Shown piece after piece: positions 30,001-63,681 of a DNA stretch of 64,000 bases. Location: assembly GCF_001613935.1 (NCBI RefSeq), contig NZ_LQCI01000002.1, positions 186,001 to 250,000 on the forward strand, written 5' to 3'. The translations under genes and the position numbers were made by a program. The notes beneath the pieces were generated by a model, which saw only the letters and a program-made list of their open reading frames with translations, ran no database searches and was not told where the DNA came from. Within the stretch, counting starts at the first letter, position 1, and every line of letters begins with the position of its first letter. Origin of the DNA: Amycolatopsis regifaucium. GTDB lineage: Bacteria; Actinomycetota; Actinomycetes; Mycobacteriales; Pseudonocardiaceae.

Positions 30001-30057
30001 AGTACATGATGGCCCCCTTCCTTGCGCTAGACGCAAGGAAGGGGGCCATCATGTACT
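30001..30057. terminator. Long inverted repeat a (47-nt core family)
   Basis: A perfect 26-bp stem (30001-30026 with 30032-30057) has a 5-nt loop. The core from ATG (30006) to CAT (ending 30052) is 47 nt. It lies 3' of the BNR-repeat gene and directly beside the broken end of the oxidoreductase remnant. Its arm is almost identical to element b at 58477. No T-run follows, so it would be an actinobacterial I-shaped terminator if it terminates. Confidence 0.7.
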
Positions 30058-30083
30058 GGGGGGGTAGGTGTGACCGGTGGTGC

Positions 30084-30093
30084 CACTCACGAC
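30084..30093. repeat. CACTCACGAC word at a gene end
   Basis: The 10-mer CACTCACGAC overlaps the stop codon of the BNR-repeat gene. The same word occurs at 45022-45031 and inverted at 20925-20934, each time close to a 3' end. Confidence 0.35.
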
Positions 30094-31124
30094 AGCCGGG
30101 CCGCCCGGCCTTTCGCACCGCTCGCCCAGCACGCACCGCGAGCGCAATCGACCGAGTCGAGCGAGCCCGTGTCGAACGACTGCCAGTGCCGTCCGCCGTC
30201 CGGGCTCAGGTCGCTTCCGCCGGGCCCGACGGCGATGACCGTGTTCCCCAGCCAGGCCAGACCCGAGCGGTAGCCGACGGGAGCCTCCGACGGCGTCCGC
30301 CAGGCGCGGCCCTTGTCCGCGCTCAACGCCACAGCGGGACCGGGCGCGTTCGGGGCCGCGTAGTCGCCGCCGATGGCGACACCGTGCCGCGGGTCCCGGA
30401 ACGTCACGGAGAAGACCCCGGCGGAGGCGCCGCTGGGCAGTGGCGTGTCGGCCGCTTCCCAGGTCAGCCCACCGTCGCCGGAGTGCAGGACCCGGGCACG
30501 GGCACCGCCTCCGGTGGCGATCCAGGCGTCGCGCGGGCCCGAGGTGGTGAGGCACTGGCCGCTGGCGGCGAAGCCGAACTCGCCGTCCAGCGCGGGGACC
30601 ATGCCTGCGGCGGGTACCTGCTGCCAGGTGCGGCCGCCGTCCGAAGTGGACTGCAGGCGGAACTTCCCGTCTACCGGGTCGCTCATCGCGAGGCCGCGGC
30701 GGTGGTCGAAGAAGGCGAGGCAGTCGTAGAAGGCGGCCGGTTCGGGGTTCTGGAACGACAGTCGCCAGGTCTTGCCGCCGTCGTCGGTGCGGTAGATCCG
30801 GGACGCCTCACCGGGCCCGATGGACAACGCGACGGCGTGATCGGCGTCGAAGGCCTCGATGTCCCGGAAATCGAGCGCCGCGGCGCCGGCGGGGGCGACG
30901 GGCTGCCAGGTCCGGCCGCGATCGGTGGTACGCAGAATGGTGCCCCTGCTGCCGCTGACCCACGCCGTCCGGGAATCCACCGCGGAGAGACCGCGCAACT
31001 GGGCGTCCGTGCCCGTCGGGGTCTCCGTCCAGGCGGGATCGGGACAGTCCGGCGCGGCCTGCGCGGCGCCGGTGAACGCCAGCGGAACGACCGCTCCCAG
31101 CAGGACCAGCAACGCACGGCGCAT
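30087..31124 (-). CDS. Secreted BNR/YCF48-type repeat protein
   Basis: A 345-residue exported protein with a clear signal peptide (MRRALLVLLGAVVPLAF, cleavage near AAQA-AP). A beta-propeller built of BNR-like repeats follows, with repeated S/T-x-D-x-G-x-x-W motifs: TTDRGRTWQ, TDDGGKTWR, TSDGGRTWQ, HSGDGGLTWE, SADKGRAWR and SPDGGRHWQ. Six such units imply a six- or seven-bladed propeller. Such proteins are annotated as sialidase-like or oxidoreductase-like without proven activity. Catalytic residues of sialidases are not evident. ATG at 31124 has GGAGAGG upstream. It follows pafA on the same strand but is separated from it by a long hairpin. Confidence 0.8.
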   Translation of the reverse strand: MRRALLVLLGAVVPLAFTGAAQAAPDCPDPAWTETPTGTDAQLRGLSAVDSRTAWVSGSRGTILRTTDRGRTWQPVAPAGAAALDFRDIEAFDADHAVALSIGPGEASRIYRTDDGGKTWRLSFQNPEPAAFYDCLAFFDHRRGLAMSDPVDGKFRLQSTSDGGRTWQQVPAAGMVPALDGEFGFAASGQCLTTSGPRDAWIATGGGARARVLHSGDGGLTWEAADTPLPSGASAGVFSVTFRDPRHGVAIGGDYAAPNAPGPAVALSADKGRAWRTPSEAPVGYRSGLAWLGNTVIAVGPGGSDLSPDGGRHWQSFDTGSLDSVDCARGACWASGAKGRAARLS

Positions 31125-31146
31125 CGGCGCACCTCTCCCTCGAAGA

Positions 31147-31199
31147 TCCGTGAAGGCCACCTTAAGGGACTCTGATTCCCTCAAAGTGGCCTTCACGGA
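31147..31199. terminator. Long inverted repeat c (47-nt core family), after pafA
   Basis: Arms of 23 nt (31147-31169 and 31177-31199) pair with two mismatches around a 7-nt loop. The core from GTG (31150) to CAC (ending 31196) is 47 nt. It begins 5 nt after the pafA stop, so it would end the pafA transcript before the BNR gene. Confidence 0.7.
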
Positions 31200-31203
31200 C
31201 CAA

Positions 31204-32562
31204 TCAGAGTGAGCTGATCAGCCGCTCGACCCGCTCGTCCACCGAGCGGAACGGGTCCTTGCACAGCACGGTCCGCTGCGCCTGGTCGTTCAGCTTGAGG
31301 TGCACCCAGTCCACGGTGAAGTCCCGTCCGGCGGCCTGCGCCGCGGCGATGAAGTCACCGCGCAGCTTCGCCCGCGTGGTCTGCGGCGGGGTGTCCTTGG
31401 CCAATTCGATCTCGCCGTCGTCGGTGACCCGCCGGACCAGACCCTTGCGCTGCAGCAGGTCGAAGATGCCGCGGCCGCGCCGGATGTCGTGATAGGCCAG
31501 GTCGAGCTGCGCGATCCGCGGGCTCGACAGGTCGAGGTCGTGCTTGTTGCGGTAGCGCTCGACCAGCCGGTGCTTGATCGCCCAGTCGATCTCGGTGTCG
31601 ATCTTGCTGAAGTCCTGCTGCTCGACCGCCTCCAGTGCCCGGCCCCACAGCTCGACGACCCGCTCGGACTGCGGCGAGGAACCGGTCTCCTTGACGTGCT
31701 GGACGGCGCGGGCGTGGTACTCACGCTGGATATCCAGCGCGGACGCCTCCCGGCCGCCGGCGAGCCGCACCTGGCGGCGGCCGGTGAGGTCGTGGCTGAT
31801 CTCGCGGATGGCCCTTATCGGGTTGTCGAGGGTGAAGTCACGGAACTGGACGCCCGCCTCGATCATCTCCAGCACCAGGTTGGCCGACCCGACCTTCAGC
31901 ATCGTGGTCGGTTCGGCCATGTTCGAGTCGCCGACGATCACGTGCAGGCGCCGGTAACGCTCGGCGTCGGCGTGCGGCTCGTCGCGGGTGTTGATGATCG
32001 GCCGGGAACGCGTGGTCGCGCTGGACACGCCTTCCCAGATGTGTTCCGCTCGCTGGGACAGGCAGTACACCGCGCCGCGCGGGGTCTGCAGGACCTTGCC
32101 CGCGCCGCAGATCAGCTGCCGGGTCACCAGGAACGGCAGCAGCACGTCCGCGATCCGGGAGAACTCGCCGGCACGGGTCACCAGGTAGTTCTCGTGACAG
32201 CCGTAGGAGTTGCCCGCCGAGTCGGTGTTGTTCTTGAACAGGAAGATGTCGCCGCCGATGCCCTCGTCCGCCAGCCGTCGCTCGGCGTCGACCAGGAGGT
32301 CCTCGAGGATCCGCTCCCCCGCCTTGTCGTGCGTGACGAGCTGCACGAGGTCGTCACATTCGGCCGTGGCGTATTCCGGGTGGGAACCCACGTCGAGATA
32401 GAGCCGGGAGCCGTTCGACAGGAAGACGTTCGACGAACGTCCCCAGGACACGACCCGCCGAAACAGGTAACGCGCCACTTCATCCGGGGAGAGCCTGCGT
32501 TGACCGTGAAAGGTGCACGTGACCCCGAATTCGGTCTCGATGCCAAAGATCCGCCGCTGCAT
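31204..32562 (-). CDS. pafA: Pup-protein ligase PafA
   Basis: A 452-residue ligase, the same length as M. tuberculosis PafA, that joins the Pup C-terminal Glu to substrate lysines using ATP. It belongs to the glutamine-synthetase-like carboxylate-amine fold. [12 protein letters not shown] opens the nucleotide-binding sheet, [13 protein letters not shown] carries the active-site loop, and [20 protein letters not shown] and [20 protein letters not shown] are strongly conserved in PafA/Dop. ATG at 32562 lies 6 nt after TACTCT (32569-32574), supporting a leaderless message. Unlike in mycobacteria, pafBC is not adjacent and a lipid-metabolism gene separates pafA from the proteasome genes. Confidence 0.96.
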
Positions 32563-32709
32563 CCCACCAGAGTAGGCGGTGAGGACCCGCTGAAGGTGCG
32601 CCGTTCGGGCGGCGACACGCGGTCGGTACGTTGCATTCGGTGAAAGGTGTGCGGGAAGTCCCGATCGGGTATCACGCACATGTCGACCTGACCCGGAAGC
32701 GGTGAAACC

Positions 32710-34188
32710 GTGTTAAAGCAGCTCAAACGCCCTTTCCGCAAGGTCGGCCGGACCGACCGGCGCCTGATGGCCCGGAGTGCGGCACTACCGAGGACCAGGG
32801 CCGACGACGTCATCACGGCCCTTTCCAAAAGTGCGGACAAATCCAAACTCTGGTGGTGTGTCGCCGTCCTGCTCGCGGCGAAGAAGGGGCCTACCCGCCG
32901 CGGCGCCCTGCGCGGCGTGGCCGCCATCGCGGGCGCCAGCGCCGCGGCGAACCTGGTCGGCAAGCCCCTGTTCCCCCGCCGCCGTCCCGCGGCCGAGGAG
33001 GTGCCGCTCAACCGGCGCCTCGTCCGGCGCCCGACCTCGTCGTCCTTTCCGTCCGGGCACTCGGCGTCCGCGGCCGCCTTCGTCACGGCCGTCGCGATGG
33101 AATCCCCCAAAACCGGCGCGGCCCTGGTCCCGCTGGCCGCCGCCGTGGCCTACTCCCGGGTCCACACCGGCGTCCACTGGCCCAGTGACGTCGGCGTGGG
33201 GATCGGCATCGGCATCGGCGCGGGCCTGCTCACCCGGCACTGGTGGCCGCTGAATCCCGACGTCCCCGGGCGCACCGCGCACACCGCCGAAGCCCCCGAA
33301 ATGCGCGACGGCGAGGACATGCTGGTCCTGGTCAACCCGCTCTCCGGGATCGACGGCCGCGACCCGACCGAAGACGTCCGCTACGCCTGGCCCAAGGCCA
33401 CGGTGCTGTACCCGGACCCGAAGCAGGACCTGCGCGAACAGCTCTGCGAAGAGATCGCCGCCCGCGACAACACCGTGCGGGCGCTCGGCGTCGCCGGCGG
33501 GGACGGGACGGTCGCCGCGGTGGCCGCCGTCGCGGCCGATCACGACCTGCCGCTCGCCCTCATCCCGGCGGGCACCCTCAACCACTTCGCGCGCGACGTC
33601 GGCATGCGTTCGATGCCCGACGCCGACGCCGCCACCGAGGCGGGCAACGCCGTCGGCGTCGACCTCGGCGAGGTCGAAATCAACGACCAGGACGACCACC
33701 GCTACTTCGTCAACACCGCGAGTCTCGGCGGTTACCCGGAGATGGTCCGGCTACGGGAAAAGCTCCAGAAACGGCATCCCAAGTGGCCGTCCGCGGCGAT
33801 CGCGCTCGCCCGCACGCTCCGGCGCGCGAAGCCGCTGGAAGTGACCCTCAACGGCAAGCACGCCAGCATCTGGCTGCTGTTCGTCGGCAACGGCACCTAC
33901 GCGCCGAAGGGGCTCGCGCCCTCGCACCGCCCGGCACTCGACACCGGCCTGCTCGACGTCCGCTACCTGCGCGCCGACCTGCCGTACTCGCGGGCGCGGT
34001 TCATCCTGGCCATGATCACGAACAGCCTCAACGCCAGCCACGTGTACCAGGAACTCGACCTGCCGGAACTGCACGTCCGGCTCCTCGACGGCAACCGCCG
34101 CGTCGCCACCGACGGGGAGGTCGGACCGCTCGGCAAGGACTTCCGCTTCCGTTCACGGCCCAGCGCGCTGACCATCTACCGGCTCTGA
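32710..34188 (+). CDS. Bifunctional PAP2 phosphatase / diacylglycerol kinase-like protein
   Basis: A 492-residue fusion. The N-terminal half is a membrane PAP2 phosphatase with the acid-phosphatase signature in [15 protein letters not shown] (about residues 112-126) and [16 protein letters not shown] (about 151-166). The C-terminal half is a DAGK_cat lipid kinase with [15 protein letters not shown] and [15 protein letters not shown]. Together they could dephosphorylate and phosphorylate lipid intermediates. This fusion is known in actinobacteria, so it is not an assembly artefact. The start is a GTG without a strong ribosome-binding site. It is divergent from pafA and convergent with prcA across a long hairpin, and is inserted within the otherwise proteasomal region. 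Confidence 0.88.
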
Positions 34189-34202
34189 GGAGCGGTAAGC
34201 CG

Positions 34203-34265
34203 GAAAGTCCGTGAAGGCCTCCTTCCCTACCTTGAGCGTAGGAAAGGAGGCCTTCACGGACTTTC
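34203..34265. terminator. Long inverted repeat d (47-nt core family)
   Basis: Arms of 28 nt (34203-34230 and 34238-34265) have one mismatch and a 7-nt loop. The core from GTG (34211) to CAC (ending 34257) is 47 nt. It fills most of the gap between convergent genes (PAP2-DAGK and prcA) and would work in both directions. The arm resembles element f. Confidence 0.75.
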
Positions 34266-34279
34266 GGTGGGGCGCAGTC

Positions 34280-35035
34280 CTACTTGGACTCACCTTCAGG
34301 CTTGTCGCCCTCGGCCTTGTCCGTCTCCGGTTCCTCCGGCTCGACGGGGAGCAGCGCGTCCAGCGCCGCCCCGGCGACCCTCCGGAACTTGCGGCCGCGC
34401 CGCTCCCGCTCCAGGACGGCGACCTCGAGCTTCACCGGGTCCGAGTCGCCGTTCGTGGGTGCCGGGGTGTTGGCGCGCAACGCCTTCACCGCGACGCCGA
34501 GCGCGTCGGCCAGCTCCATGTCCGGCTCGAAGCTCTCCTTGAGCTTCGTGGTGAGCGTATCGGCCTGACCGCCCATCACGACGAACTTCGGCTCGTCGTA
34601 GATCGAACCGTCGTAGGTCAACCGGTACAGCTGGTCTTCGGCCGCGGTCGCGCCGACCTCGGCGACACAGACCTCCACCTCGAACGGCTTCAGCTGTTCG
34701 GTGAAGATGCTGCCCAGCGTCGCGGCGTACGCGTTCGCCAGGGCACGCGCGCTGACGTCCCGGCGGTCGTACTGGTAGCCCTTCAGGTCCGCGTGCCGGA
34801 TACCGGCGACCCGCAGGTTCTCGAATTCGCTGTACCGGCCCACGGCCGCGAAACCGATCCGGTCGTAGATCTCCGACACCTTGTGCAACGTCGCCGAGGG
34901 GTTCTCGGCCACGAACAGCACGCCACCGCGGTACTTGAGCACGACCACGCTCCGGCCGCGCGCGATGCCCTTGCGCGCGATCTCGGAACGCTCCCGCATC
35001 AGCTGCTCGGGAGAGGCGTACAACGGCATCGTCAC
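34280..35035 (-). CDS. prcA: 20S proteasome alpha subunit
   Basis: A 251-residue alpha subunit forming the outer rings and gate of the 20S core. The N-terminal [20 protein letters not shown] helix is the alpha signature, followed by [18 protein letters not shown] and [19 protein letters not shown]. The C-terminal tail is acidic and Glu/Pro-rich, as in M. tuberculosis PrcA. GTG at 35035 is chosen (GGAG 7 nt upstream). ATG at 35029 would remove only two residues. It lies 64 nt after prcB on the same strand, the usual prcB-prcA order. Confidence 0.96.
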
Positions 35036-35099
35036 TGTGGTGCTCCGCTCTTTCTGGCTCTCATCGGAAAGGGAACAGGGAGGAAGGCCTCAAAACCGC

Positions 35100-35936
35100 C
35101 TAGCGCCCGCGCTCGGCTCGCGCGGCCACGACGGCCTCGGCCACCGCGGTCGTCTGCTCCACCGGCACGGCGACGGCACCCTGTTCCGCGGTGACCGTGA
35201 CGACCGTCGGGAAGATCCGGCGCACCAGATCCGGCCCGCCGGTCGCGCTGTCGTCGTCCGCCGCGTCGTACAGCGCCTCGACCGCCACGCGGATCGCGCC
35301 TTCGGCGTCCGCGTCGGGGTCGTAGAGCTTCTTCAGCGCGCCCTTCGCGAACAGCGAACCCGAACCGATGGCGTGATACCCGGCGCGCTCCTCGTAGCGC
35401 CCGCCCGTGGGGTCGTACGACACGATCCTGCCCGCGTGCTTGGCGTCCTCCGCCTCGAGGTCGTAGCCGACGAACAGCGGCAGCACGGCCAGGCCTGCCA
35501 TCGCCATCTCCAGGTTGGACTTCACCAGCCCGGCCAGCTTGTTCGTCTTACCGTCGAGCGAGAGCGAGACACCCTCGATCTTCTCGTAGTGCGCCAGTTC
35601 GACCGCGTACAACCGCACCATCTCGATCGCCAGCCCGGCCGAACCCGCGATCCCCACCGCCGAATACTCGTCGGTGACGTGCACCTTCTCCATGTCGCGC
35701 GAAGCGATCAGGTTGCCCGACGTCGCCCGCCGGTCACCGGCGATCAGCACCCCGCCCGCGAACTTGACCGCGACGATCGTCGTACCGTGCGGCGCGGCGA
35801 GCCCCGCCGCCCCCGCCGCGGCCCGCCGCTCGGGCAGCAGCTCGGGCGCCTGCGCCCGAAGGAAATCCGAGAACGACGAGGTCGCAGACGAGAAGTACGC
35901 GGCGGGCAGCGCCGACTTACCCGAGGTGTGTTCCAT
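35100..35936 (-). CDS. prcB: 20S proteasome beta subunit
   Basis: A 278-residue beta subunit with the proteolytic sites of the 20S core. A 51-residue propeptide ends APHG and is followed by the catalytic N-terminal Thr ([20 protein letters not shown], Thr52), with the conserved Asp and Lys nearby. [17 protein letters not shown] and [20 protein letters not shown] are typical of bacterial beta subunits. Autocleavage after Gly51 should expose Thr52. It lies 73 nt downstream of pup and upstream of prcA, as in most actinobacteria. Confidence 0.97.
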
Positions 35937-36009
35937 ACGTGCTCAAAGTTCCAATCTGTGTGATCCGCCGGCTCCGCACCGGCGGCCGCGGGGGCCGCCG
36001 GAAGACGAG

Positions 36010-36204
36010 CTACTCGCCGCCCTTTTGCACGTACGCGCGAACGAAGTCCTCGGCGTTCTCCTCGAGTACGTCGTCGATCTCGTCGAGGATCGTGTCGACG
36101 TCCTCACCGAGCTTCTCGCGTCGCTCCTGGCCGGCCGGACCGCCGCCCTCGAACTCTTCGTCCGAGTCGCCGCCGCCGTGCTTTTCGATCTTTTCCTGAG
36201 CCAT
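36010..36204 (-). CDS. pup: Prokaryotic ubiquitin-like protein Pup
   Basis: A 64-residue intrinsically disordered protein modifier. It is highly acidic, with the helical central region KLGEDVDTILDEIDDVLEEN that binds the Arc/Mpa coiled coil, and it ends FVRAYVQKGGE. The last codon before TAG is GAG, so Pup is made with a C-terminal Glu and needs no deamidation before ligation. M. tuberculosis Pup ends in Gln. ATG has GGGAGG upstream, and TAGGCT some 30 nt upstream could be its -10. The gene precedes prcB and follows dop by 97 nt. Confidence 0.97.
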   Translation of the reverse strand: MAQEKIEKHGGGDSDEEFEGGGPAGQERREKLGEDVDTILDEIDDVLEENAEDFVRAYVQKGGE

Positions 36205-36301
36205 CTCGCCTCCCGGTGTGGCCGATGTTTCCTAGCCTACCCAGCGGTCCCGACATTCCGCGGGATCCGTGATCGCTTAACACTGAGGAAAGGAAAACCC
36301 G

Positions 36302-37804: not shown

Positions 37805-37847
37805 ACCCACCACCCTACGGGGTCGGGGCCGTGCGACGATGCCCCCC

Positions 37848-38366
37848 ATGTCAGGCAGTGACGAACTCGTTGCGCTCTATGACCTCGGCGGAACCGCCGT
37901 GGGGGAAGCCGCCCGCTCCCGGGTGCGTGCCGAGAACCTGTGGCACGCCGCCGGCGTCGTCTTGGTCCGTTCGAGTGACGGAAACTCCGTCTACGTGCAC
38001 CTGCGCACGCCGACGAAGGACGTCTATCCCTCCACTTGGGACTGCTGGGCGGGCGGCATCGTCGCGGCGGGCGAGACCCCGGAGGACTGCGCGCGCCGCG
38101 AACTGGCTGAAGAACTCGGTGTTCACGGAGTGGAACTACAGCCGCTCTTCGTCCACATCACCGACGACGGCACGATCCGCTGCCACAACTTCGCCTTCGA
38201 GGCCCGCTGGGACGGCCTCTTCGTGCATCAGCCGTCCGAAGTCGTCGAAGGACGATGGCTGACGCTGGACGAGTTGCGTTCGTGGCTCGAGGATCCGGAG
38301 AGCCGGTTCGTCCCGGACGGACGGCTCGGCGCGCTGGAGTGGTTCCGGCGGGAAGCCGCCCGCTAG
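37848..38366 (+). CDS. Nudix hydrolase
   Basis: A 172-residue Nudix protein. The Nudix box is intact: [20 protein letters not shown] followed by ELGV, with the metal-binding REL and EEL glutamates, at about residues 73-96. The sequence before it ([15 protein letters not shown], then STWDCWAGG) resembles the IPP-isomerase-like/YfcD subgroup, which hydrolyses nucleoside-diphosphate-linked compounds. The substrate is not assignable. ATG at 37848 is preceded by GACGAT 7 nt upstream, a weak leaderless -10. Divergent from dop, and its stop interlocks with the stop of the lipoprotein gene through CTAG. Confidence 0.88.
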
Positions 38367-40459: not shown

Positions 40460-41371
40460 TTGGGACGTTTCAGTATCGCGATCCGGTTCGCGGCACTCGC
40501 GATCGTGTGGGGTGCGAGTTTTCTGTTCATCAAGGTCGGTCTCACCGGCCTGTCGCCCGCACAGGTGGCGCTTTCCCGCGTCTGCCTCGGCGCGCTGGCG
40601 CTGATCGCCATCGCGGCCTGGCGGCGCAAGCCACTCCCCCGTGATCCGGCGCTCTGGGGTCACCTCGCGGTCCTCTCCGTGCTGCTGTGCGTCATCCCGT
40701 TCCTGTTGTTCTCCTGGGCCGAGCAGTACATCTCCTCCGGGCTCGCCAGCATCTTCAACGCCACGACCCCGCTGATCACCATGCTCATCGCCGCGGCGGC
40801 CCTGCCGTCCGAGCGGTTCACGAAGGCCCGCACGACGGGTCTGCTCCTCGGCTTCCTCGGCGTGCTCACGATCGTCGGGGTCTGGCAAGGGATCGACGTC
40901 TCCCACGAGCTGACGGCGCAGCTGGCGTGCCTGGGCGCGACCACGTGTTACGGAATCTCGTTCGTCTACGTCCGGCGGTTCATCTCCTGGCGCAACCTCG
41001 ACGCGCCGACCATCGCGCTCGGCCAGGTCTGTTGCGGCGCCGTGGTGATGCTGGCACTCGCGCCGTTCATCGCGACGTCGCCGGTGCGCCTCGACACGCC
41101 GATCGTCTTGAGCATGATCGCACTCGGCGCGCTGGGCACAGGGCTCGCCTACGCCTGGAACGCGTCGATCATCGCGGCCTGGGGCGCGTCGAACGCCTCG
41201 GCGGTGACCTACCTCACACCGGTCGTCGGTGTCCTGCTCGGTGTCCTGGTCCTCGACGAACCCTTGGCATGGAACCAGCCTGTCGGCGCGTTGCTCGTCG
41301 TCCTCGGGATCCTGGCCGCGCACGGCCGGTTGAGCCCGCGCAAGAAAACCGCGGAACCCGTAGCCGCGTAA
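40460..41371 (+). CDS. EamA/DMT-family transporter
   Basis: A 303-residue drug/metabolite transporter with ten hydrophobic segments in two EamA repeats (IRFAALAIVWGASFLFIKVG at the start of repeat 1, CYGISFVYVRRFISW opening repeat 2). It is an inner-membrane exporter of small metabolites or amino acids, substrate unknown. TTG at 40460 is chosen because AGGAGAAGG lies 4 nt upstream and it opens directly into the first helix. An upstream GTG at 40349 adds 37 hydrophilic residues unlike the family. It converges on arc across element e. Confidence 0.85.
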   Translation: MGRFSIAIRFAALAIVWGASFLFIKVGLTGLSPAQVALSRVCLGALALIAIAAWRRKPLPRDPALWGHLAVLSVLLCVIPFLLFSWAEQYISSGLASIFNATTPLITMLIAAAALPSERFTKARTTGLLLGFLGVLTIVGVWQGIDVSHELTAQLACLGATTCYGISFVYVRRFISWRNLDAPTIALGQVCCGAVVMLALAPFIATSPVRLDTPIVLSMIALGALGTGLAYAWNASIIAAWGASNASAVTYLTPVVGVLLGVLVLDEPLAWNQPVGALLVVLGILAAHGRLSPRKKTAEPVAA

Positions 41372-41376: not shown

Positions 41377-41425
41377 ACCGAAGGGGCTCTTCACCACATG
41401 GCATGCGGTGAAGAGCCCCTTCGGT
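41377..41425. terminator. Long inverted repeat e (47-nt core family, variant ends)
   Basis: Arms of 24 nt (41377-41400 and 41402-41425) have one mismatch and a 1-nt centre. The core is again 47 nt (41378-41424), but its ends read CCGAAGG rather than RTGAAGG. It lies between convergent EamA and arc genes, immediately after the EamA stop. Confidence 0.7.
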
Positions 41426-44441: not shown

Positions 44442-44891
44442 GTGTCCAGCAGGCTGATCGCCGTTCTCGCCGGCTGCGGCGCGGTCGTGGTGGGTGTCGT
44501 GGTGGGGCTGCTGCTGGTGGCCCCGTCCGGCTCCGGCCCGGCCGCGTCGAGCACGGCGCCCGCTCCTCCGGGGCCGAGCTCGTCCCGTCCGGTCCCGGTG
44601 GATCCGGACGTGGCCGCGGTCGAGGTGGTCGGCAAGGCGATCGCCGCGGCCATCGTGAACCACGACGCGACGGCGTTCGGCAAGCTCACCTGCGTCCAGC
44701 AGTCGTCGGCCTCGCTGGCCGAGCTGAAGCGGAAGTGGGAGGCCGCGGGCAAAGTGAGCGCGACCGTCCCGGATCCGCCGTCGGTCGGCGGCGACTCGGC
44801 CACCGTGACCGTCCACGTCGAAGGCGCGGGCGGTCAGAAGGACACCCCGTTCCCACTGAAGAAGCGGGACGGCAAGTGGTGCGTGCCGTGA
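44442..44891 (+). CDS. Membrane-anchored relative of the upstream protein
   Basis: A 149-residue protein with an N-terminal hydrophobic anchor (about residues 5-27), a Ser/Pro linker and an outer domain with two Cys (KLTCVQQSS and final GKWCVP). The ending KRDGKWCVP parallels the upstream protein's [10 protein letters not shown], so the two are tandem relatives with different anchoring. The GTG start lies 10 nt after the upstream stop, indicating an operon. The stop codon lies inside the left arm of element f. Function unknown. Confidence 0.7.
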   Translation: MSSRLIAVLAGCGAVVVGVVVGLLLVAPSGSGPAASSTAPAPPGPSSSRPVPVDPDVAAVEVVGKAIAAAIVNHDATAFGKLTCVQQSSASLAELKRKWEAAGKVSATVPDPPSVGGDSATVTVHVEGAGGQKDTPFPLKKRDGKWCVP

Positions 44892-44937
44892 AGGCCTCCT
44901 TCCCCACCTTCAGAGTAGGGAAGGAGGCCTTCACGGC
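44885..44937. terminator. Long inverted repeat f (47-nt core family), overlapping a stop codon
   Basis: Arms of 23 nt (44885-44907 and 44915-44937) have one mismatch and a 7-nt loop. The core from GTG (44888) to CAC (ending 44934) is 47 nt. The TGA of the preceding gene is in the left arm. The sequence is close to element d, including the loop-proximal ACCTT. Confidence 0.75.
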
Positions 44938-45001
44938 CTTGAGAAGACAATCAGGCTAGACGCAAGCGGATATTTTCCCTGAATGCGTCCTCTGTGGTAA
45001 T

Positions 45002-45031
45002 GACGGTTCTAACCGTCCTGCCACTCACGAC
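45002..45031. repeat. GTTCTAAC dyad with CACTCACGAC word
   Basis: GACGGTT and AACCGTC (45002-45017) form a perfect 7-bp dyad around CT, followed by CACTCACGAC (45022-45031), 6 nt before the trmI stop. The same word and a GTTCTAAC centre occur at 20925-20966. It lies between convergent genes together with element f, and may be trmI's own terminator. Confidence 0.45.
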
Positions 45032-45036
45032 CCGCG

Positions 45037-49897: not shown

Positions 49898-49954
49898 ACG
49901 CCATGAAAGGTCCTTTCCTTGCGAATTTCGCAAGGAAAGGACCTTTCATGGCGT
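49898..49954. terminator. Long inverted repeat g (47-nt core family), perfect 28-bp arms
   Basis: Arms of 28 nt (49898-49925 and 49927-49954) are perfectly complementary around one central nucleotide. The core from ATG (49903) to CAT (ending 49949) is 47 nt. It lies between the convergent ParA-like gene and hisG, starting 4 nt after the ParA-like stop. The loop-proximal part (TTGCG/CGCAA) is shared with elements a and b while the outer part differs. Confidence 0.78.
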
Positions 49955-53922: not shown

Positions 53923-53938
53923 GGCTCCCCCTTCACGG

Positions 53939-57502: not shown

Positions 57503-57509
57503 GCCCAAC

Positions 57510-57535
57510 AGGGTACGACCGCCTGGTCGTAGGCT
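57510..57535. promoter_or_regulatory. Divergent promoter with dyad, metH / PAC2
   Basis: TACGACC (57514-57520) and GGTCGTA (57525-57531) form a perfect 7-bp inverted repeat with a 4-nt spacer. The leftward -10 TACCCT (57510-57515) and rightward -10 TAGGCT (57530-57535) overlap its two ends, 7 and 6 nt from the ATG and GTG. The two promoters overlap, so binding of polymerase or a regulator to one should affect the other. Confidence 0.55.
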
Positions 57536-57541
57536 GGTCCG

Positions 57542-58441
57542 GTGAGTGAGCCCGTCGACGAGACCCAGCTACCCGGCCGCGACCACCCGGACGAGACCAA
57601 GCCGATCATGATCGTCGCCTTCGAAGGTTGGAACGACGCAGGTGACGCGGCCAGCCGGGCGGTCGAGCATCTCCAGCTCAACTGGGATGCGACACCGCTG
57701 AGCGAGCTGAGCCCGGACGAGTATTACGACTTCCAGGTGAGCAGACCGACCGTGCGCATGGTCGACGGTGTCACCCGAAGGGTCGACTGGCCGACCACCC
57801 GGCTCTCGGTGTGCCGCCCGGAAGGCTTCAGCCGGGACGTCGTGCTGGTCCAAGGTCCCGAGCCGAACATGCGCTGGCGCGCCTTCTGCGGCGAACTGCT
57901 GGAGTACATCCAGCAACTGGAGGTCGCCACCGTCGTCACCCTCGGCGCGCTGCTGGCCGACACCGCGCACACCCGGCCCGTCCCGGTGACCGGGACGGCC
58001 TACGACAAGGACACCGCCTCGCAGTTCGGCTTGGAGCTGAACAACTACCAAGGCCCGACCGGCATCGTCGGCGTTCTGCAGGACTACTGCGTGCAGGCGG
58101 GCGTACCGGCGGTGTCGATCTGGGCGGCCGTGCCGCATTACGTCTCCCACCCGCCGTCGCCGAAGGCCACACTCGCGCTGCTGCACAAACTCGAAGACGT
58201 CCTCGACGTCGAAATCCCGCTCGGCGCGCTGCCGGAGCAGGCCGAGGAGTGGCAGCGGACGGTCACCGACATGGCCGAAGAGGACGAGGAGATCAGCGAG
58301 TACGTCCGGGGACTCGAGGAGCGCGGTGACGCGGAAACCGAGTTCACGCTGGACGACGTGAGCGGGGACAAGATCGCGGCCGAGTTCGAGCGATACCTGC
58401 GGCGGCGGCGTCCCGGGCAGGACGGGCCGGGACGGGGCTAG
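57542..58441 (+). CDS. PAC2-family (proteasome assembly chaperone-like) protein
   Basis: A 299-residue PAC2-domain protein: IMIVAFEGWNDAGDAASRAV opens the domain, DVVLVQGPEPNMRWRAF and TLGALLADTAHTRPVPVTG are typical, and a C-terminal helical acidic tail follows. The fold resembles purine-nucleoside phosphorylases and eukaryotic proteasome-assembly chaperones, but bacterial members have not been shown to act on the proteasome. M. tuberculosis Rv2125, also next to metH, is the positional equivalent. GTG at 57542 lies 6 nt after TAGGCT, so it is probably leaderless. Co-occurrence with the proteasome in this window is suggestive only. Confidence 0.88.
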   Translation: MSEPVDETQLPGRDHPDETKPIMIVAFEGWNDAGDAASRAVEHLQLNWDATPLSELSPDEYYDFQVSRPTVRMVDGVTRRVDWPTTRLSVCRPEGFSRDVVLVQGPEPNMRWRAFCGELLEYIQQLEVATVVTLGALLADTAHTRPVPVTGTAYDKDTASQFGLELNNYQGPTGIVGVLQDYCVQAGVPAVSIWAAVPHYVSHPPSPKATLALLHKLEDVLDVEIPLGALPEQAEEWQRTVTDMAEEDEEISEYVRGLEERGDAETEFTLDDVSGDKIAAEFERYLRRRRPGQDGPGRG

Positions 58442-58476
58442 GTCGCGCTCCCGCCCTTGGCCCGCGGTGGCGCGTG

Positions 58477-58531
58477 GTACATGATGGCCCCCTTCCTTGC
58501 GCCTAGCGCAAGGAAGGGGGCCATCATGTAC
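58477..58531. terminator. Long inverted repeat b (47-nt core family)
   Basis: A perfect 26-bp stem (58477-58502 with 58506-58531) has a 3-nt loop. The core from ATG (58481) to CAT (ending 58527) is 47 nt. Over the arms it is nearly identical to element a, 28 kb away. It lies between the convergent PAC2 and phosphoesterase genes. Confidence 0.78.
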
Positions 58532-58567
58532 TTGAGGGTTCGCGCCGGGGCATGGCGCGGCTGGGCG

Positions 58568-59392
58568 TCAGAAGATGCGCCGCAGCGGAATCGGACCTCG
58601 TGCCCGCTTCCGCCACTCCCGCGGATAGCCGAGCGAGACCTCCTCGAACCGCACCCCGTCCGCTTCGGTGGACCGCGGGATGTGCAGGTGCCCGTAGACG
58701 GCGACCTCCGCGCGGAACCGCAGGTGCCAGTCCTCGGTCTCGGTCGTCCCGCACCACAACGCGAACTCCGGCCAGTACAGCGGCGCGGTCGGGTGACGGT
58801 GCAGCGGCCAGTGCGACATCAGGATCGTCCCGTGGTCTTCCGGGATCGCCTCCAGCCGCTCGGTGCTGATCTTCACCCGGTCGGCGCACCAGGCCTGCCT
58901 GCTGGGATACGGGTCCGGGTGCAGGAAGAACTCGTCCGTGCACAGCACACCGGCGTCGCGCGCCTGGTCGATGGCCGCCTGCATCGGCAGTCCTTCGGCC
59001 GCCGGCGCCCGCCAGCTGTAGTCGTACAGCACGAACAACGGGGCGACCGTCAGCGGTTTCTCCTGGTGTTCCCACACCGGGTACGGATCCTCAGGGGTGA
59101 GGACGTCGATCTCACGGCATCGCTCGACCAAGTGCTCGTAGCGCGCCTGGCCCCGCAGCTGGCATTCGTCCTTCTGGGTGGTCCACAGCTCATGGTTGCC
59201 GGGGACCCAGACGACCTTCGCGAAGCGTTCCCGCAAGGTCTTGAGCACCCCGATCACGGATTCGGCGCGTTCGGCGACGTCACCGGCCACGAGCAGCCAG
59301 TCGTCGGAGGTACGGGGGACGACCTCGTCGACGAGCGGGGCGTTGCCCTCATGGGTGACGTGGAGGTCGCTGGTGGCGAAGAGATGTGGCAC
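58568..59392 (-). CDS. Metallophosphoesterase
   Basis: A 274-residue calcineurin-like phosphoesterase with the metal-binding motifs in order: FATSDLHVTHE (D-x-H), LLVAGDVAE (GD), VWVPGNHELW (GNHE), LMSHWPLH (H) and VYGHLHIPR (GHxH). Substrate unknown. Similar proteins in streptomycetes often adjoin a phosphopantetheinyl transferase gene, which is not seen here. GTG at 59392 lies 6 nt after TACGGT, so it is probably leaderless. The MFS gene ends 15 nt upstream on the same strand. Confidence 0.9.
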   Translation of the reverse strand: MPHLFATSDLHVTHEGNAPLVDEVVPRTSDDWLLVAGDVAERAESVIGVLKTLRERFAKVVWVPGNHELWTTQKDECQLRGQARYEHLVERCREIDVLTPEDPYPVWEHQEKPLTVAPLFVLYDYSWRAPAAEGLPMQAAIDQARDAGVLCTDEFFLHPDPYPSRQAWCADRVKISTERLEAIPEDHGTILMSHWPLHRHPTAPLYWPEFALWCGTTETEDWHLRFRAEVAVYGHLHIPRSTEADGVRFEEVSLGYPREWRKRARGPIPLRRIF

Positions 59393-59407
59393 TCCACCAC
59401 CGTAGCT

Positions 59408-60646
59408 TCACTCGGACCGGGGAACCGCCAAGACCGCATCACGGCGTAAGCGACCCGACGCCAGCACGCCCAGCACGATCAGCGCGGAGGCGGTGTGCAG
59501 GCCCGCCTGGACGTTCAGCAGGACACCGTTGCCGAGCACGCTCACCAGCCCGCCTGCCAGCAGCGCGCCCAGCGCGGTGAAGCCCGCCATCCCGGCGAAC
59601 ATCGTACTGAGCACGCGGCCGGACCGCTCCGGCGACGCGGCCGTCTGGACCAGCGACAGCAATCCGGAACCGGCGAGTACCCCCGGCGCGCCGACGAGCC
59701 CGAAGAGGCCGATGTAGACACCCAGTGACGCCGTGAGCGCCGGGAGGTTCCAGATCAGCGCCGACAGCAGGCCGAGCGCGAGCCCGCCCCAGCCGAGCAG
59801 GGCGGCGGGCGCGACCTTGCGGGCGACGGTGGCGACGGCGAATCCGGCGACCAGCCCGCCGAGCGCCTGCACACCGCGCAGCAGGCCGACGTCGCCTTCG
59901 GTGCCGTCGAGGATGTCGAGCACGAAGACCACGAACAGCACCAGGAACATGCCCTGCGCCAACGAGGTCAGGACCACGACGAAACCGGCCACGCGCAGCC
60001 GCCCTTCCCGGCCGATCTCGCGCAGGCCGTCGAGCCACGCCTTCACCACCGGCTCGTGCGGACCGGCCGCGACGGGTGCCGCGGCCCGGCGGAAGGGACG
60101 TGCCAGCAGGGCCGACGCGATCGCCAGTACGCCGAGGTAGGCCACCACGACCCAGCCCAGGCCACCGAATCCGAGCAGCAGACCGCCCGCCCAACCACCC
60201 ACGAGGCGAGCGACGCTGCCGTTGATGCTCATGAGGCCGTTGGCACCGGTCAGCTCGTCCGGGCCGACCAGTTCCGGTACAAGCGCGTTGCGGGCGGGTT
60301 CGAACAGCGAGGCCAGCCCCGCTTGGCCCGCCATGACCGCGTAGATCACGAACACCGGACCGCCGGACGCGACGAACAGCAGCGGCAGCGCCACGAACGC
60401 CTGCCCCGCGCACACCACGCACAGCACCAGCCGCCGGTTCCAGCGATCCGCGGTCACCCCGGCGACCGGGCTGAGCAGCACCGCGGGAAGCAGTCCGAGC
60501 ACGATGCTCAACGCCGTGGTGGCCGCGGAGCCGGTGGCCCGGAAGACGAACACCGGCAACGCGATCTGCAGCATCCATTCGGCGGTCTCGGAGAAGAAGG
60601 CGGCGATCCACAGCCGCAGGAAGGCGGGCTCTTTCAACGGTTTCAT
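59408..60646 (-). CDS. MFS transporter (second MFS-HTH unit)
   Basis: A 412-residue 12-helix major facilitator of the enterobactin-exporter-like (MFS_3) type. ETAEWMLQIALPVFVFRATG is in helix 1 and AGVTADRWNRRLVL is the loop after helix 2. It is an inner-membrane exporter with unknown substrate. Its ATG overlaps the stop of the HTH gene, as in the unit at 8987-10812. The proteins are only distantly similar, so the arrangement may be a shared architecture rather than a recent duplication. Confidence 0.88.
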   Translation of the reverse strand: MKPLKEPAFLRLWIAAFFSETAEWMLQIALPVFVFRATGSAATTALSIVLGLLPAVLLSPVAGVTADRWNRRLVLCVVCAGQAFVALPLLFVASGGPVFVIYAVMAGQAGLASLFEPARNALVPELVGPDELTGANGLMSINGSVARLVGGWAGGLLLGFGGLGWVVVAYLGVLAIASALLARPFRRAAAPVAAGPHEPVVKAWLDGLREIGREGRLRVAGFVVVLTSLAQGMFLVLFVVFVLDILDGTEGDVGLLRGVQALGGLVAGFAVATVARKVAPAALLGWGGLALGLLSALIWNLPALTASLGVYIGLFGLVGAPGVLAGSGLLSLVQTAASPERSGRVLSTMFAGMAGFTALGALLAGGLVSVLGNGVLLNVQAGLHTASALIVLGVLASGRLRRDAVLAVPRSE

Positions 60647-61221
60647 CGGCTCGGCTTCCCCTCCGCGTCGAGGCGGAGGAACGCGCGCAATCCCAGGTGC
60701 ACCGGCCGGGCCTCCTCCGGCGCGTCCTCGCGGATCGCGCCGACGTAGGGCCGGACCAGCGCGTCGATCCCCTCGATCAGCTTGTCCAGTTCCGCGGCGG
60801 TCACCCGCAGCGAGTAGGTGGTGAGGCCGGAGGAGTCCTGCCACTCCTTCTCCAGCCGGTCCGCGGCTTCGAGGTAGCGCTCGGTCAGTTCCCGCTCCCG
60901 CGCGAGTGTCGTGCCGACCACGGCCAGCTGCGCCCCGCGCAATTCCGGGTCGTTCCCGAACTCGATCCCGACCTGACAGGCGCGCCAGGGCCGCTCGCGC
61001 CCGTCCTCGGCTTCGACGCGTTCGACCAGGCCGTGCTGGGCGAGCTGACGCAGATGCCAGCTGATGTTGGACGCGGTCGAACCGACGGCCGTCGCGCATT
61101 CGCTCGCGGTACGCGGCCCCACCGCCATCAGGTGGTCCACCAGCGCCGCACGCAGCGGATGCGCCAGCGCGCGCATCAGCTCCACATCCTCGATCCGCTT
61201 GCGCGGTGGCAACCCGGTCAT
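60643..61221 (-). CDS. ArsR-like winged-helix regulator (second MFS-HTH unit)
   Basis: A 192-residue regulator with the same design as that at 10234-10812. The winged helix is LMRALAHPLRAALVDHLMAV then ASNISWHLRQLAQHGLV, followed by a helical sensor domain. ATG at 61221 is chosen; an upstream in-frame extension would pass through the dyad-rich operator region. It is probably a repressor of itself and the coupled exporter. The divergent neighbour is a MarR gene, so the intergenic region serves both directions. Confidence 0.85.
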   Translation of the reverse strand: MTGLPPRKRIEDVELMRALAHPLRAALVDHLMAVGPRTASECATAVGSTASNISWHLRQLAQHGLVERVEAEDGRERPWRACQVGIEFGNDPELRGAQLAVVGTTLARERELTERYLEAADRLEKEWQDSSGLTTYSLRVTAAELDKLIEGIDALVRPYVGAIREDAPEEARPVHLGLRAFLRLDAEGKPSR

Positions 61222-61233
61222 CGCCCGATCCAA

Positions 61234-61275
61234 TCTGAAACATCTCTTTCGAAAGGTCTCTTTCAGAGTTTCAGA
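61234..61275 (-). promoter_or_regulatory. Operator cluster upstream of the second HTH-MFS unit
   Basis: The perfect palindrome CTTTCGAAAG (61246-61255) lies between TCTGAAA (61234-61240) and two direct copies of TTTCAGA (61261-61267 and 61269-61275), so the outer words form inverted repeats around it. It lies 13-54 nt upstream of the regulator start. The sequence differs from the operator of the first unit, suggesting separate specificities. Confidence 0.6.
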
Positions 61276-61372
61276 CGCTCCTCGCCGTGTCAAACGCCTT
61301 CGATACCCTTTCCCCGACAGTTGCTGCCTTGTGCAATGACTGCCTCAGTCAACTACTGCACGAGGAACACAC

Positions 61373-61852
61373 ATGCCTGAGCAGCGAGAACTCGTCACCG
61401 CGGCGGCTTTGGAGATCCCCCGGTTCGTCAGCGCCACGGTGCTCTTCCAGACGGCCATGGCGGAACGGCTCGGGATCAGCCCCACCGAGCTGCACGGACT
61501 CCAGCTGGTCATCAGCGGGGCCGCGACCGCGCCGACCCAGCTCGCCGCCGCGCTCGGCATGACGACCGGCGCGGTAACGCGGATGCTCGACCGCATGGCG
61601 AAGCAGCGTTTGGTCGAACGCGTCCCCGACCCGGCCGACCGTCGCCGTCTCCTGATCCGCCCGCTCCCCGATCGGCTGGACGACGTCGCCGACCTCTACG
61701 CCCCCATGGCCCGCTTCTTCGGCGAGCGCCTCGGAAAGCTCGATCGCCGCCAGCTCGCCGCTCTTCTCGGCGTCATGACCGACGGCCGCGCCTTCGCCGA
61801 ACGCGAGGCCGCACGCCTGCGATCGGGGTCGCCGGAAAACAGGGTTGACTAA
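61373..61852 (+). CDS. MarR-family transcriptional regulator
   Basis: A 159-residue MarR protein with the winged helix visible as GAATAPTQLAAALGMTTGAV, then TRMLDRMAKQRLVERVPDPA and the DRRRLLIR wing. N- and C-terminal helices would dimerise. MarR proteins usually repress and are released by phenolic or antibiotic ligands. ATG has GAGGA upstream. The stop codon overlaps an inverted repeat (61849-61872) embedded in the promoter of the downstream ABC-F gene, so it most likely controls that resistance-type gene. Confidence 0.9.
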   Translation: MPEQRELVTAAALEIPRFVSATVLFQTAMAERLGISPTELHGLQLVISGAATAPTQLAAALGMTTGAVTRMLDRMAKQRLVERVPDPADRRRLLIRPLPDRLDDVADLYAPMARFFGERLGKLDRRQLAALLGVMTDGRAFAEREAARLRSGSPENRVD

Positions 61853-61875
61853 CGCTACAGAGATTGCGTTAGACT
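61845..61875 (+). promoter_or_regulatory. Promoter-operator of the ABC-F gene
   Basis: CTAACGC (61849-61855) and GCGTTAG (61866-61872) form a perfect 7-bp inverted repeat with a 10-nt spacer. It lies between and over -35 TTGACT (61845-61850) and -10 TAGACT (61870-61875), spaced 19 bp. A repressor here would occlude polymerase. The predicted transcript starts around 61882, next to the tiny frame ATG-GAC-AAC-TGA at 61885, 105 nt before the ABC-F start. Confidence 0.6.
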
Positions 61876-62001
61876 GCCGGCATCATGGACAACTGACATC
61901 GCATCCCTCCCCGCTCCGAGGCGGCTTCGGTCGAGCACGGCTCCCGCAAGCGACCAGACCCGGCGGGGATCCCTCACGGATCCGAAACGCGGTGATGTCG
62001 T

Positions 62002-63615
62002 ATGTCTTCTTCCCTTTCCTTGATCGCCAAGGACCTCGTCCGCTCCTACGGCACCCGCGTCGTGCTCGACGGCGTCAACCTGACCGCTTCGGCCGGGCAA
62101 CGGCTCGGTCTCGTCGGTGAGAACGGCGTCGGGAAGTCCACCCTCCTGCGCCTGCTCGCCGGGGTCGAAGAGCCGGACGCCGGCGAGGTGCTCCGCGGTG
62201 ATGACCTGGGATTCCTGTTGCAGGAGCTGCCTTTCCCCTCGACGGCCCGGTTCTCCGAGGTCATCGACGGCGCGCTCGCCGAAATCCGGCAGGCGTCGGC
62301 GAGACTCGACGAACTGACCGCGACGCTCACGGAACGTCCCGACGACGCGGCGGTCCTCGACGAGTACGGCACCGTCCTCGACTGGGCCCAGGCGCACGAC
62401 CTCTGGGACGCCGACCGGCGGGCCGAGATCGTGTGCGCGGGCCTCGGGCTCGCCGGGATCGATCCGGCGCGGACGTTGGGCACGCTGTCGGGCGGGCAGC
62501 GGTCGCGGCTCGGCCTGGCCGCGCTGCTGATCCGGCGGCCCGGAACGCTGATCCTCGACGAGCCGACGAACCACCTCGACGACGCGGCGATGGAGTTCCT
62601 CGAACAGCATCTCGCGTCGCTGACCGGGGTCCTCGTGCTGGCGTCGCACGACCGCGTGTTCCTCGACGCGGTGTGCACCGACATCGTCGACCTCGATCCG
62701 GCACTGGGCGGGCCGACCAGGTACGGCGGCGCGTATTCCGCCTATCTGGACCAGAAACGGGCCGAACGGGCGCGCTGGGAACAGCGGTACGCCGAGGAAC
62801 AGGACGAACTGAAGGAACTGCGCGAATCGGTGGCCGTCACCGCGCGCGCCGTCGCGCACAACCGGCCTCAGCGCGACAACGCCAAGATGCTCTACAACTT
62901 CAAGACCGGGAGGGTGCAGAAGCAGATCTCACGCCGGGTCCGCAACGCCCAGTTGCGGCTGGAGGAACTGGAACGCGATCAGGTCCGGAAGCCGCCCGCT
63001 CCACTGCGGTTCCAGGCGGAGCTCACCGGCACGCCCGGCGAGGACAAGACGGCGATCTCGGTCCGGGATCTCCACGTCCCCGGACGGCTGCGGCTGGAGA
63101 CCCTCGACATCACGACCACGTCGAGGCTCCTGATCACCGGTGGGAACGGCGCGGGGAAGTCCACGCTCCTGTCCGTGCTGACCGGAGCGCTGACCCCGGC
63201 TTCCGGGACCGTCCTTCGTGGACGCGGGGTCCGGATCGGCCTGCTGGCCCAGGATGTGGAGTTCGCCGAGCCGGACCGGTCGGCGCAGCGGATCTACACC
63301 GAAACACTCGGCGAAGGTGCGCCGCCGTTGCGCGGCCTGGGTTTGCTGGCTCCACGGGACCTCGGGACCAGGGTCGGCGCGCTGTCGGTCGGGCAGCGAC
63401 GGCGGCTCGCGCTGGCGTTGCTGATCGCCGACCCGCCGGACGTCCTCCTGCTCGACGAGCCGACGAACCACCTCTCGCTCACCTTGGCCGAAGAGTTGTT
63501 CGCCGCGCTCGACTCGGCTCCGGGCGCCGTCGTCGTCGCTTCGCATGATCGATGGCTGCGCCGGGACTGGGCGGGTGACCACCTGCGGCTGGAAGCCGGC
63601 CGCGTGGCGGCATAG
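62002..63615 (+). CDS. ABC-F family ATPase (ribosome-protection/resistance type)
   Basis: A 537-residue soluble protein with two ABC domains and no membrane segment. Domain 1 has VGENGVGKSTLLRLL, LSGGQRSRLGLA and LILDEPTNHLDD. The inter-domain linker (about 250-320) is charged and helical, reaching into the ribosome. Domain 2 has TGGNGAGKSTLLSVL, LSVGQRRRLALA and LLLDEPTNHLSL. ABC-F proteins displace antibiotics from the ribosome or tune translation. With a MarR regulator upstream and a leader of about 120 nt, an antibiotic-resistance role is likely, drug class unknown. ATG at 62002 lacks a strong ribosome-binding site. Confidence 0.92.
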   Translation: MSSSLSLIAKDLVRSYGTRVVLDGVNLTASAGQRLGLVGENGVGKSTLLRLLAGVEEPDAGEVLRGDDLGFLLQELPFPSTARFSEVIDGALAEIRQASARLDELTATLTERPDDAAVLDEYGTVLDWAQAHDLWDADRRAEIVCAGLGLAGIDPARTLGTLSGGQRSRLGLAALLIRRPGTLILDEPTNHLDDAAMEFLEQHLASLTGVLVLASHDRVFLDAVCTDIVDLDPALGGPTRYGGAYSAYLDQKRAERARWEQRYAEEQDELKELRESVAVTARAVAHNRPQRDNAKMLYNFKTGRVQKQISRRVRNAQLRLEELERDQVRKPPAPLRFQAELTGTPGEDKTAISVRDLHVPGRLRLETLDITTTSRLLITGGNGAGKSTLLSVLTGALTPASGTVLRGRGVRIGLLAQDVEFAEPDRSAQRIYTETLGEGAPPLRGLGLLAPRDLGTRVGALSVGQRRRLALALLIADPPDVLLLDEPTNHLSLTLAEELFAALDSAPGAVVVASHDRWLRRDWAGDHLRLEAGRVAA

Positions 63616-63632
63616 GGCGTTATACGCACGTC
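63612..63632. repeat. Second copy of the 21-nt repeat (first at 40327)
   Basis: Identical over 21 nt to 40327-40347. The sequence starts ATAGGGCGTTATACGC; its TAG is the ABC-F stop codon, and its last base is the first of element h. No gene starts from it here. Confidence 0.6.
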
Positions 63633-63681
63633 ATGAAGGGGTCCCCATGAGACGGATTCGTCTTAGGGGGACCCCTTCATG
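63632..63681. terminator. Long inverted repeat h (variant, 48-nt core)
   Basis: A perfect 15-bp outer stem, CATGAAGGGGTCCCC (63632-63646) with 63667-63681, is followed by a mismatched zone and a short inner AGAC/GTCT pair. The core from ATG to CAT is 48 nt, one longer than in the other elements. It lies between the convergent ABC-F and mshC genes. Confidence 0.65.

Follow-up and report, generated by a model that had tools for sequence, protein, structure and literature searches.

The 64,000-nucleotide stretch of DNA analyzed here (the window) covers a proteasome-pupylation locus of an Amycolatopsis. The proteasome beta subunit encoded there shares 98% identity with its counterpart in A. orientalis KCTC 9412, which places the source in the orientalis clade. 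Besides the genes for PafA, Dop, the proteasome alpha and beta subunits and the proteasomal ATPase, the region encodes HisG, a TrmI-like methyltransferase and a ParA-like ATPase; genes were called with a custom program based on codon usage, and calls of small genes may be wrong. Dispersed among these genes are eight long inverted repeats, elements a to h, each forming a hairpin around a core of nearly constant length. A first-pass annotation had listed these dyads and proposed that they represent a defined element rather than plain terminators. All eight were found where it had placed them and with the core lengths it gave, 47 nt in seven and 48 nt in one (63633-63680). The RTGAAGG-type motif that it reported at the ends of the cores is also present, although in a looser form than described: two window copies have ATGATGG, one has ATGAAAGG and one has CCGAAGG.

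Hairpins in the window

Of the seven convergent gaps in the window that measure at least 50 bp, six hold one of the eight hairpins. Element c (34203..34265, core 34211-34257, 47 nt) is a 63-nt hairpin flanked by the proteasome alpha gene and, convergent with it, gene 32710-34188; each of the two stop codons is 14 nt away. Element e (41377..41425, core 41378-41424, 47 nt), with 49 nt in total, separates the proteasomal ATPase gene from the convergent gene 40460-41371, whose transporter-like product scores below the NCBIfam cut-offs. The 51-nt element d (44886..44936, core 44888-44934, 47 nt) takes in the stop codon of gene 44442-44891, and element f (49898..49954, core 49903-49949, 47 nt), a 57-nt hairpin of family D, lies between the convergent ParA-like gene and hisG. 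Element g (58477..58531, core 58481-58527, 47 nt; 55-nt hairpin) is flanked by the convergent genes 57542-58441 and 58568-59392, and element h (63632..63681, core 63633-63680, 48 nt; 50-nt hairpin) by the convergent genes 62020-63615 and 63689 onward. The remaining two lie past the ends of other genes: element a (30001..30057, core 30006-30052, 47 nt), a perfect 57-nt hairpin, is 29 nt downstream of the stop codon of the tandem, minus-strand gene 30087-31124, and element b (31147..31199, core 31150-31196, 47 nt), a 53-nt hairpin, lies 4 nt past the pafA stop codon. In element a the core consists of two boxes (30006-30022 and 30036-30052) on either side of a 13-nt linker.

The seventh of these convergent gaps (20849-21114) has no such hairpin, nor does any of the seven shorter or overlapping convergent gaps in the window, and the first 30 kb contain no hairpin with a score of at least 16. 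At four places in the window (6816-6819, 13450-13453, 28276-28279 and 38363-38366) convergent genes, as called, share exactly 4 nt around their stop codons and are free of hairpins. Predicted RNA folds of the eight elements have energies of -35.5 to -57.7 kcal/mol (plus strand) with z between -7 and -12.8, and for each of them none of 200 shuffles folded as well. An Rfam scan of the window gave no match above the gathering score. In the stretch that separates element d from the tRNA methyltransferase gene (44937-45036), fragments resembling two further hairpin families, E and G, can be seen by eye and are perhaps remnants of earlier elements.

Copy number and core length

A scan of the genome for such dyads gave a sharp peak at 47 nt, as the first-pass annotation had anticipated for a defined element, and not the broad distribution that it had named as the contrary outcome. 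The window's own genome contains 258 RTGAAGG..CCTTCAY dyads of 29-54 nt, 226 of which are exactly 47 nt long, compared to two dyads and none of 47 nt for a reversed-pattern control; the proposal of a fixed-length element present in hundreds of copies is borne out. We then take "the genus" to mean the genomes assigned to the window's own genus, of which 80 were searched. All of them have at least one dyad (range 1 to 564; low counts include chance matches), the largest number of exact 47-nt copies in a single genome is 514, and 7432 of the 9162 dyads in total are 47 nt long. The 40 genomes with at least 60 dyads account for most of these (7241 of 8476 at 47 nt, vs. 191 of 686 in the other 40).

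The 47-nt peak recurs in other genera despite differing arms. In a 249-genome sample of the family, 16 genomes outside the genus have at least 25 dyads; these add up to 1257, of which 1169 have the 47-nt length (for example 187/191, 157/160, 116/123 and 64/64 in individual genomes). Two genomes of one such genus, g19, have 116 and 0 copies; with differences this sharp within a genus, amplification is patchy. Across a class-wide sample of 296 genomes, dyads number only 0-4 except in the window's own genome, G331 (18), G353 (8) and G598 (8). A single family of this class, different from that of the window, includes both G331 and G353; many of their exact-47 dyads (18 and 8) consist, by eye, of a box, a 13-nt linker and a box.

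In all, 850 kb of the window's own genome yielded 81 hairpins with a score of at least 16, while a single Markov shuffle of a 450-kb part yielded one, with a score of 13. Among 47 loosely matched cores in the same 850 kb, 40 are 47 nt long, three 39 nt, two 48 nt and two 45 nt. The length is not universal, as long-hairpin families of about 39, 44, 45, 55 and 64 nt are also found in this genome.

Internal geometry

The constant length has an anatomical basis that the first-pass annotation overlooked: 47 = 17 + 13 + 17. Two inverted, nearly palindromic 17-bp boxes lie 30 bp apart, center to center, and this spacing is what holds the core at 47 nt. The commonest box is RTGAAGGNNNCCTTCNY, and boxes beginning CCCAATG, ACAAGGG or GCGAAAG have identical geometry. 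The arrangement was detected with a motif-free scan of 229 hairpins (score of at least 17) present in 3.09 Mb of DNA from this genome and its relatives, in which a sub-palindrome with at least six of eight possible pairs lies exactly 15.0 bp from the hairpin center in 79 hairpins; each of 49 other offsets gave only 0-3. If the set is restricted to 69 arms less than 70% alike, the 15.0-bp offset is found in nine, vs. 0-2 at other offsets, and with the threshold lowered to five of eight pairs in 13, vs. 0-7 elsewhere.

The 13-bp linker is itself mostly palindromic, with 81% of its six pairs formed in hairpins that have at least five box pairs. Pairing extends about 5 bp beyond the core and then drops to background, and the 47-nt core is usually embedded in a hairpin of 53-57 nt. 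We make no claim that helical phasing causes the 30-bp spacing; at 10.5 bp per turn of B-DNA, 30 bp correspond to 2.9 turns.

A related arrangement is found in G190, a member of another genus. The stretches fetched from this genome (L201-L208) contain ten runs of two to nine boxes, with all intervals equal to 30 bp except one of 31 bp, and seven of the ten runs have an extra palindrome (like GTGAAAGGCGCTTTCAG) 33 bp past one end. Here the boxes are symmetric and the 47-nt stem is less so. Several of the runs share longer flanks.

Further hairpin families were seen in the window's own genome. Family E, with CGCATTTCGTCCTCTGAATGCG boxes, is built on the same plan from 22-bp boxes at a spacing of 42 bp (counted by hand); it forms inverted pairs and a direct run at C3:205785-205935 (L031), about a dozen further copies are found in C2 and C3, and single boxes are also present. 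A family of about 44 nt that begins GTGAGTGGTAATGACGGTT is located at gene ends (e.g., C2:306675, C3:13589 and C3:62478) and is widespread in the genus, including the gap between the ParA-like gene and hisG (ParA|hisG) of many congeners. A 55-nt family that begins CTTGATCAACGGAAGATC, with partly conserved asymmetric flanks, has copies at C2:290832, C3:115225, C3:153019, C3:177095 and C3:362057; the copy at C3:177095 adjoins a copy of family A to make a mosaic composite.

Placement at gene ends

The first-pass annotation had expected the copies of a defined element to lie at 3' ends and considered the dyads unlike plain intrinsic terminators, and both points hold for the larger set. The 81 hairpins of all families in 850 kb, about a tenth of the genome, are distributed as 48 between convergent genes, 25 between tandem genes, three between divergent genes and five inside called genes. 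Counted by gap, hairpins occupy 45 of 135 convergent, 26 of 479 tandem and three of 136 divergent gaps, so that a third of the convergent gaps are filled; these counts omit genes with a score of 15 or less, and the 135 convergent gaps include overlaps that are unable to hold a hairpin. The median distance from stop codon to hairpin is 15 nt (127 gene-to-hairpin approaches).

There is hardly any U-tract. At least four T in the first 8 nt were found past 8 of 91 hairpin ends (8.8%), vs. 4.7% of intergenic background windows. The frequency of T is 0.32 at the first base past the hairpin, 0.20-0.24 at the next three and mostly lower thereafter, with an intergenic value of 0.18. Target-site duplications were found for at most three of the 81 hairpins at any length of 3-9 and offset of 0-5.

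Turnover and co-variation at orthologous sites

Orthologous gaps often differ in the hairpin they hold. In 153 ordered comparisons among six genomes, the second genome had the same hairpin in 47 cases, a related one in 17, one of a different family in 64 and none in 25; the ordered pairs are not independent of each other. A further 142 pairs were excluded because of long unaligned flanks or distances (71), lack of a flank match (55), the wrong strand (11) or other reasons (5, four of which were traced to a chance hairpin within coding sequence and the fifth to a misordered match).

Two gaps were surveyed at 30 loci each, two of which lacked one of the genes. At ParA|hisG (element f) an inverted repeat is visible by eye in all 30 loci shown, and it is long in all of the 15 closest (at least 90% identical over the query). 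These 15 represent family D (8), a GTGAAG..CTTCAC type of 47-48 nt (5) and a GTGAGTGG type (2). The gap beside the tRNA methyltransferase gene, which holds element d in the window, measures 9 nt and has no hairpin in the close relative G035; the two genes overlap by 4 nt in nine more distant species, and different families are present in most other species. Several species have the orthologous gap of element d without a hairpin. At the site of element g, the five relatives compared have five different hairpins, one of which (G020) resembles that of the window. In G049, one and the same G049-specific version of family D occurs at three separate loci, a local consensus.

Other sites are stable. 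The comparisons at the ATPase and pafA ends draw on 80 loci, either those where the neighboring genes were found or a chosen subset. Element e is orthologous and co-varying within the orientalis clade, and paired substitutions separate species at both of these ends. For element b, nine named orientalis-clade loci gave six orthologous hairpins and one other sequence (A. azurea), the remaining two being uninformative, paralogous dop matches. With at least two of the eight sites (the pafA and ATPase ends) orthologous across species, not every copy is a recent insertion.

Stem pairing is maintained as sequences diverge. At ParA|hisG, an alignment of seven distinct sequences has 99.3% of its cells paired and four pairs that changed on both sides, a number reached in none of 500 shuffles; for further pair types the figure is 4 of 500. 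The ATPase-end alignment, with nine of the ten window-plus-named sequences (L043, with a 46-nt core, was left out), has 95.6% of cells paired and six pairs in which both members changed (again matched by 0 of 500 shuffles). Relatedness among the sequences is not taken into account in these shuffles. G052 provides a case of two stem pairs, mirror images of each other within a box, that changed together. The paired transversions seen in family D at ParA|hisG would fit template switching between arms.

Search for a mobilizing gene

We searched for PF01797, the Y1 transposase domain (IS200/IS605) of the REP-associated tyrosine transposases (RAYTs) that accompany REPINs, which are inverted doublets of repetitive extragenic palindromic (REP) sequences. 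None of the 80 genus genomes has a match, compared to 5 of 14 control genomes, and a RAYT or IS200 transposase was accordingly rejected as the mobilizer in the genus. In the family sample PF01797 is present in 50 of 249 genomes and in 2 of 20 with at least 60 dyads; one of these two matches has an in-frame stop and the other is a fragment. G190 has no Y1 transposase match either.

Nor was an autonomous element with the same ends found, as the unpaired RTGAAGG-like arms seen in 850 kb are few, short and degenerate. One family-B copy (C3:354424-354574, L038) appeared to be split by about 100 bp; it was dropped as a candidate as it spans an assembly gap (N), and the split could be an artefact of scaffolding. 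A blastn search of the plasmid and phage collections, made with element c alone, gave no match in either.

Comparison with known repeat systems

REPINs are described by Bertels and Rainey (2011; PMC3116915) as inverted REP doublets with a preferred spacing that fold into hairpins, show compensatory changes and occur near RAYTs; the abstract of that paper has REP doublets randomly distributed in extragenic space. The consensus of the REP foot is given as GT[AG]G in PMC6006769, where REP classes without it are also named. Like a REPIN, the Amycolatopsis element is an inverted pair of short palindromic units at a fixed distance that forms one hairpin and undergoes compensatory changes, and it has hundreds of mostly extragenic copies with single units rare. 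However, it is shorter (47 nt), RAYTs are missing from all 80 genus genomes, and the boxes mostly start RTGA (others CCGA, GCGA, CCCA or ACAA) instead of GT[AG]G. The Amycolatopsis copies are, moreover, concentrated at convergent gene ends, and their letters vary widely while the geometry stays constant. Since agreement with REPINs extends to the architecture but to neither the RAYT nor the GT[AG]G foot, we call the element REPIN-like and do not class it as a REPIN.

The runs in G190 and in family E are regularly spaced palindromic units, as are REP mosaics of the bacterial interspersed mosaic element (BIME) type to the extent that our sources cover them, but differ from these in their strict 30-bp (or 42-bp) spacing and, for G190, in the missing Y1 transposase match. 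Miniature inverted-repeat transposable elements (MITEs) are short, dispersed inverted-repeat elements, a description that also fits the Amycolatopsis copies; unlike MITEs, these have no target duplication and no internal sequence. With intrinsic terminators, including those that lack a U-tract, they share a strong hairpin a few nt past the stop codon that is common to convergent genes; they differ in having hardly any U-tract, a fixed length, copied families and internal box palindromes. U-tracts in mycobacterial termination are the topic of Czyz et al. (2014), judging by the title as cited in PMC8355165 and PMC10937400. No title on palindromic repeats of Amycolatopsis or Pseudonocardiaceae was found among those listed in searches of the open-access literature (subscription journals were not covered), and PMC3733652 contains no mention of actinobact, Amycolatopsis, Streptomyces, Saccharo, Frankia or Gram-positive.

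Discussion

The reading that we favor, with moderate confidence, is that the hairpins are REPIN-like dispersed palindromes independent of RAYTs, spread by copying and retained as hairpins at transcript ends. Copying is suggested by the sequence families, the empty sites and the local consensus, and the role at transcript ends by position. In such a scheme the unit of two inverted boxes and a linker would be copied whole by an enzyme acting in trans, presumably one other than a Y1 transposase of the RAYT/IS200 kind. Copies would persist where they are least harmful or somewhat useful, namely past stop codons and chiefly between convergent genes. At convergent ends, transcription from either side would yield one and the same 23-28-bp hairpin, with no U-tract; its most likely function is to mark or shield the 3' ends of transcripts and to restrict read-through. 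Either the copying enzyme or a DNA-binding protein, or the two together, may account for the fixed geometry.

Several observations weigh against this reading. The two-box geometry was found in only 79 of the 229 long hairpins, and some fully paired families have no clear box palindromes. No mobilizing gene was found among the sequences searched, nor was any insertion seen that was clean, had defined ends and came with a duplication. In at least six of the 25 comparisons scored as "none", element d among them, a weaker hairpin is in fact present that falls short of the score threshold of 15, and the flanks have diverged at the five empty gaps that measure no more than 18 nt. The hairpins at the ATPase and pafA ends are orthologous in most of the clade, as resident terminators would be, and the pair-type co-variation at the ATPase end is unexceptional (equaled in 288 of 500 shuffles). 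The 47-nt rule also has its exceptions: three of the 40 high-copy genomes have less than 70% of dyads at this length (118/174, 33/93 and 21/63), G303, outside the genus, has only 10 of 42, and the ortholog of element e in A. coloradensis (L043) has a core of 46 nt, which speaks against a strict value of 47.

Alternatively, the hairpins could be resident bidirectional terminators that evolved in place under selection for pairing, their similarity between sites being convergent or due to gene conversion. Their bias toward 3' ends and convergent genes would be expected of terminators, as would the co-varying orthologs at the ATPase and pafA ends and the presence of a long hairpin at ParA|hisG in each of the 15 closest species despite differing families. 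We consider this unlikely given that U-tracts are scarce and some orthologous gaps are empty, and it leaves unexplained the near-identical sequences of 53-57 nt at unrelated sites, the fixed 47-nt core across genera and the exact 15-bp offset of the sub-palindromes.

An explanation of similarly low probability takes the 17-bp palindromes as paired operators, i.e., duplex sites of a dimeric DNA-binding protein (for example a nucleoid or insulator protein), with the long palindrome as a by-product. Box palindromes at a fixed 30-bp spacing agree with it, and so do the G190 runs of two to nine boxes with their single 31-bp interval, in which box symmetry exceeds that of the stem. The letters of the boxes (GTGAAGG, CCCAATG, ACAAGGG and GCGAAAG at their starts) are, however, too diverse for the site of one protein, the linker and 3-5 flanking bases also pair in the window's genome, and stem pairs change together at orthologous sites.

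Still less probable is an immobile element that acts at the level of RNA, with the 23-28-bp stem processed by RNase III or a double-strand-binding protein. A-form helices have 11 bp per turn, and the stem would measure about two turns; its length, the fold energies of about -35 to -58 kcal/mol and the position at gene ends are in keeping with this, but the 17-bp sub-palindromes and the copied families would go unexplained. A miniature inverted-repeat transposon mobilized by a conventional DDE transposase, which could explain why copies with terminal inverted repeats are dispersed and why some sites are empty or hold a swapped family, is the most improbable of the four in view of the scarcity of target-site duplications and unpaired arms and of an interior that consists of nothing beyond the 13-nt linker.

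The RAYT-independent copying that we favor can be extended to a more speculative proposal, which we regard as possible but rather doubtful. The elements might belong to a class of mobile palindromes defined by geometry (17-13-17) and not by sequence, amplified separately in several actinobacterial genera via an undescribed copying mechanism. This mechanism could target hairpins, of DNA or RNA, at the ends of transcripts and rewrite entire arms in one step, with the result that the sequence family is exchanged while the gene end keeps its hairpin.

The absence of RAYTs together with hundreds of copies points to either a novel mechanism by which small hairpins are copied or a length rule on hairpins at gene ends, for which no statement was found in the literature searched. 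Both alternatives are testable in culturable antibiotic producers. The copies also matter for mapping transcript ends and choosing terminators in Amycolatopsis, and wherever repeats are used in typing or assembly.

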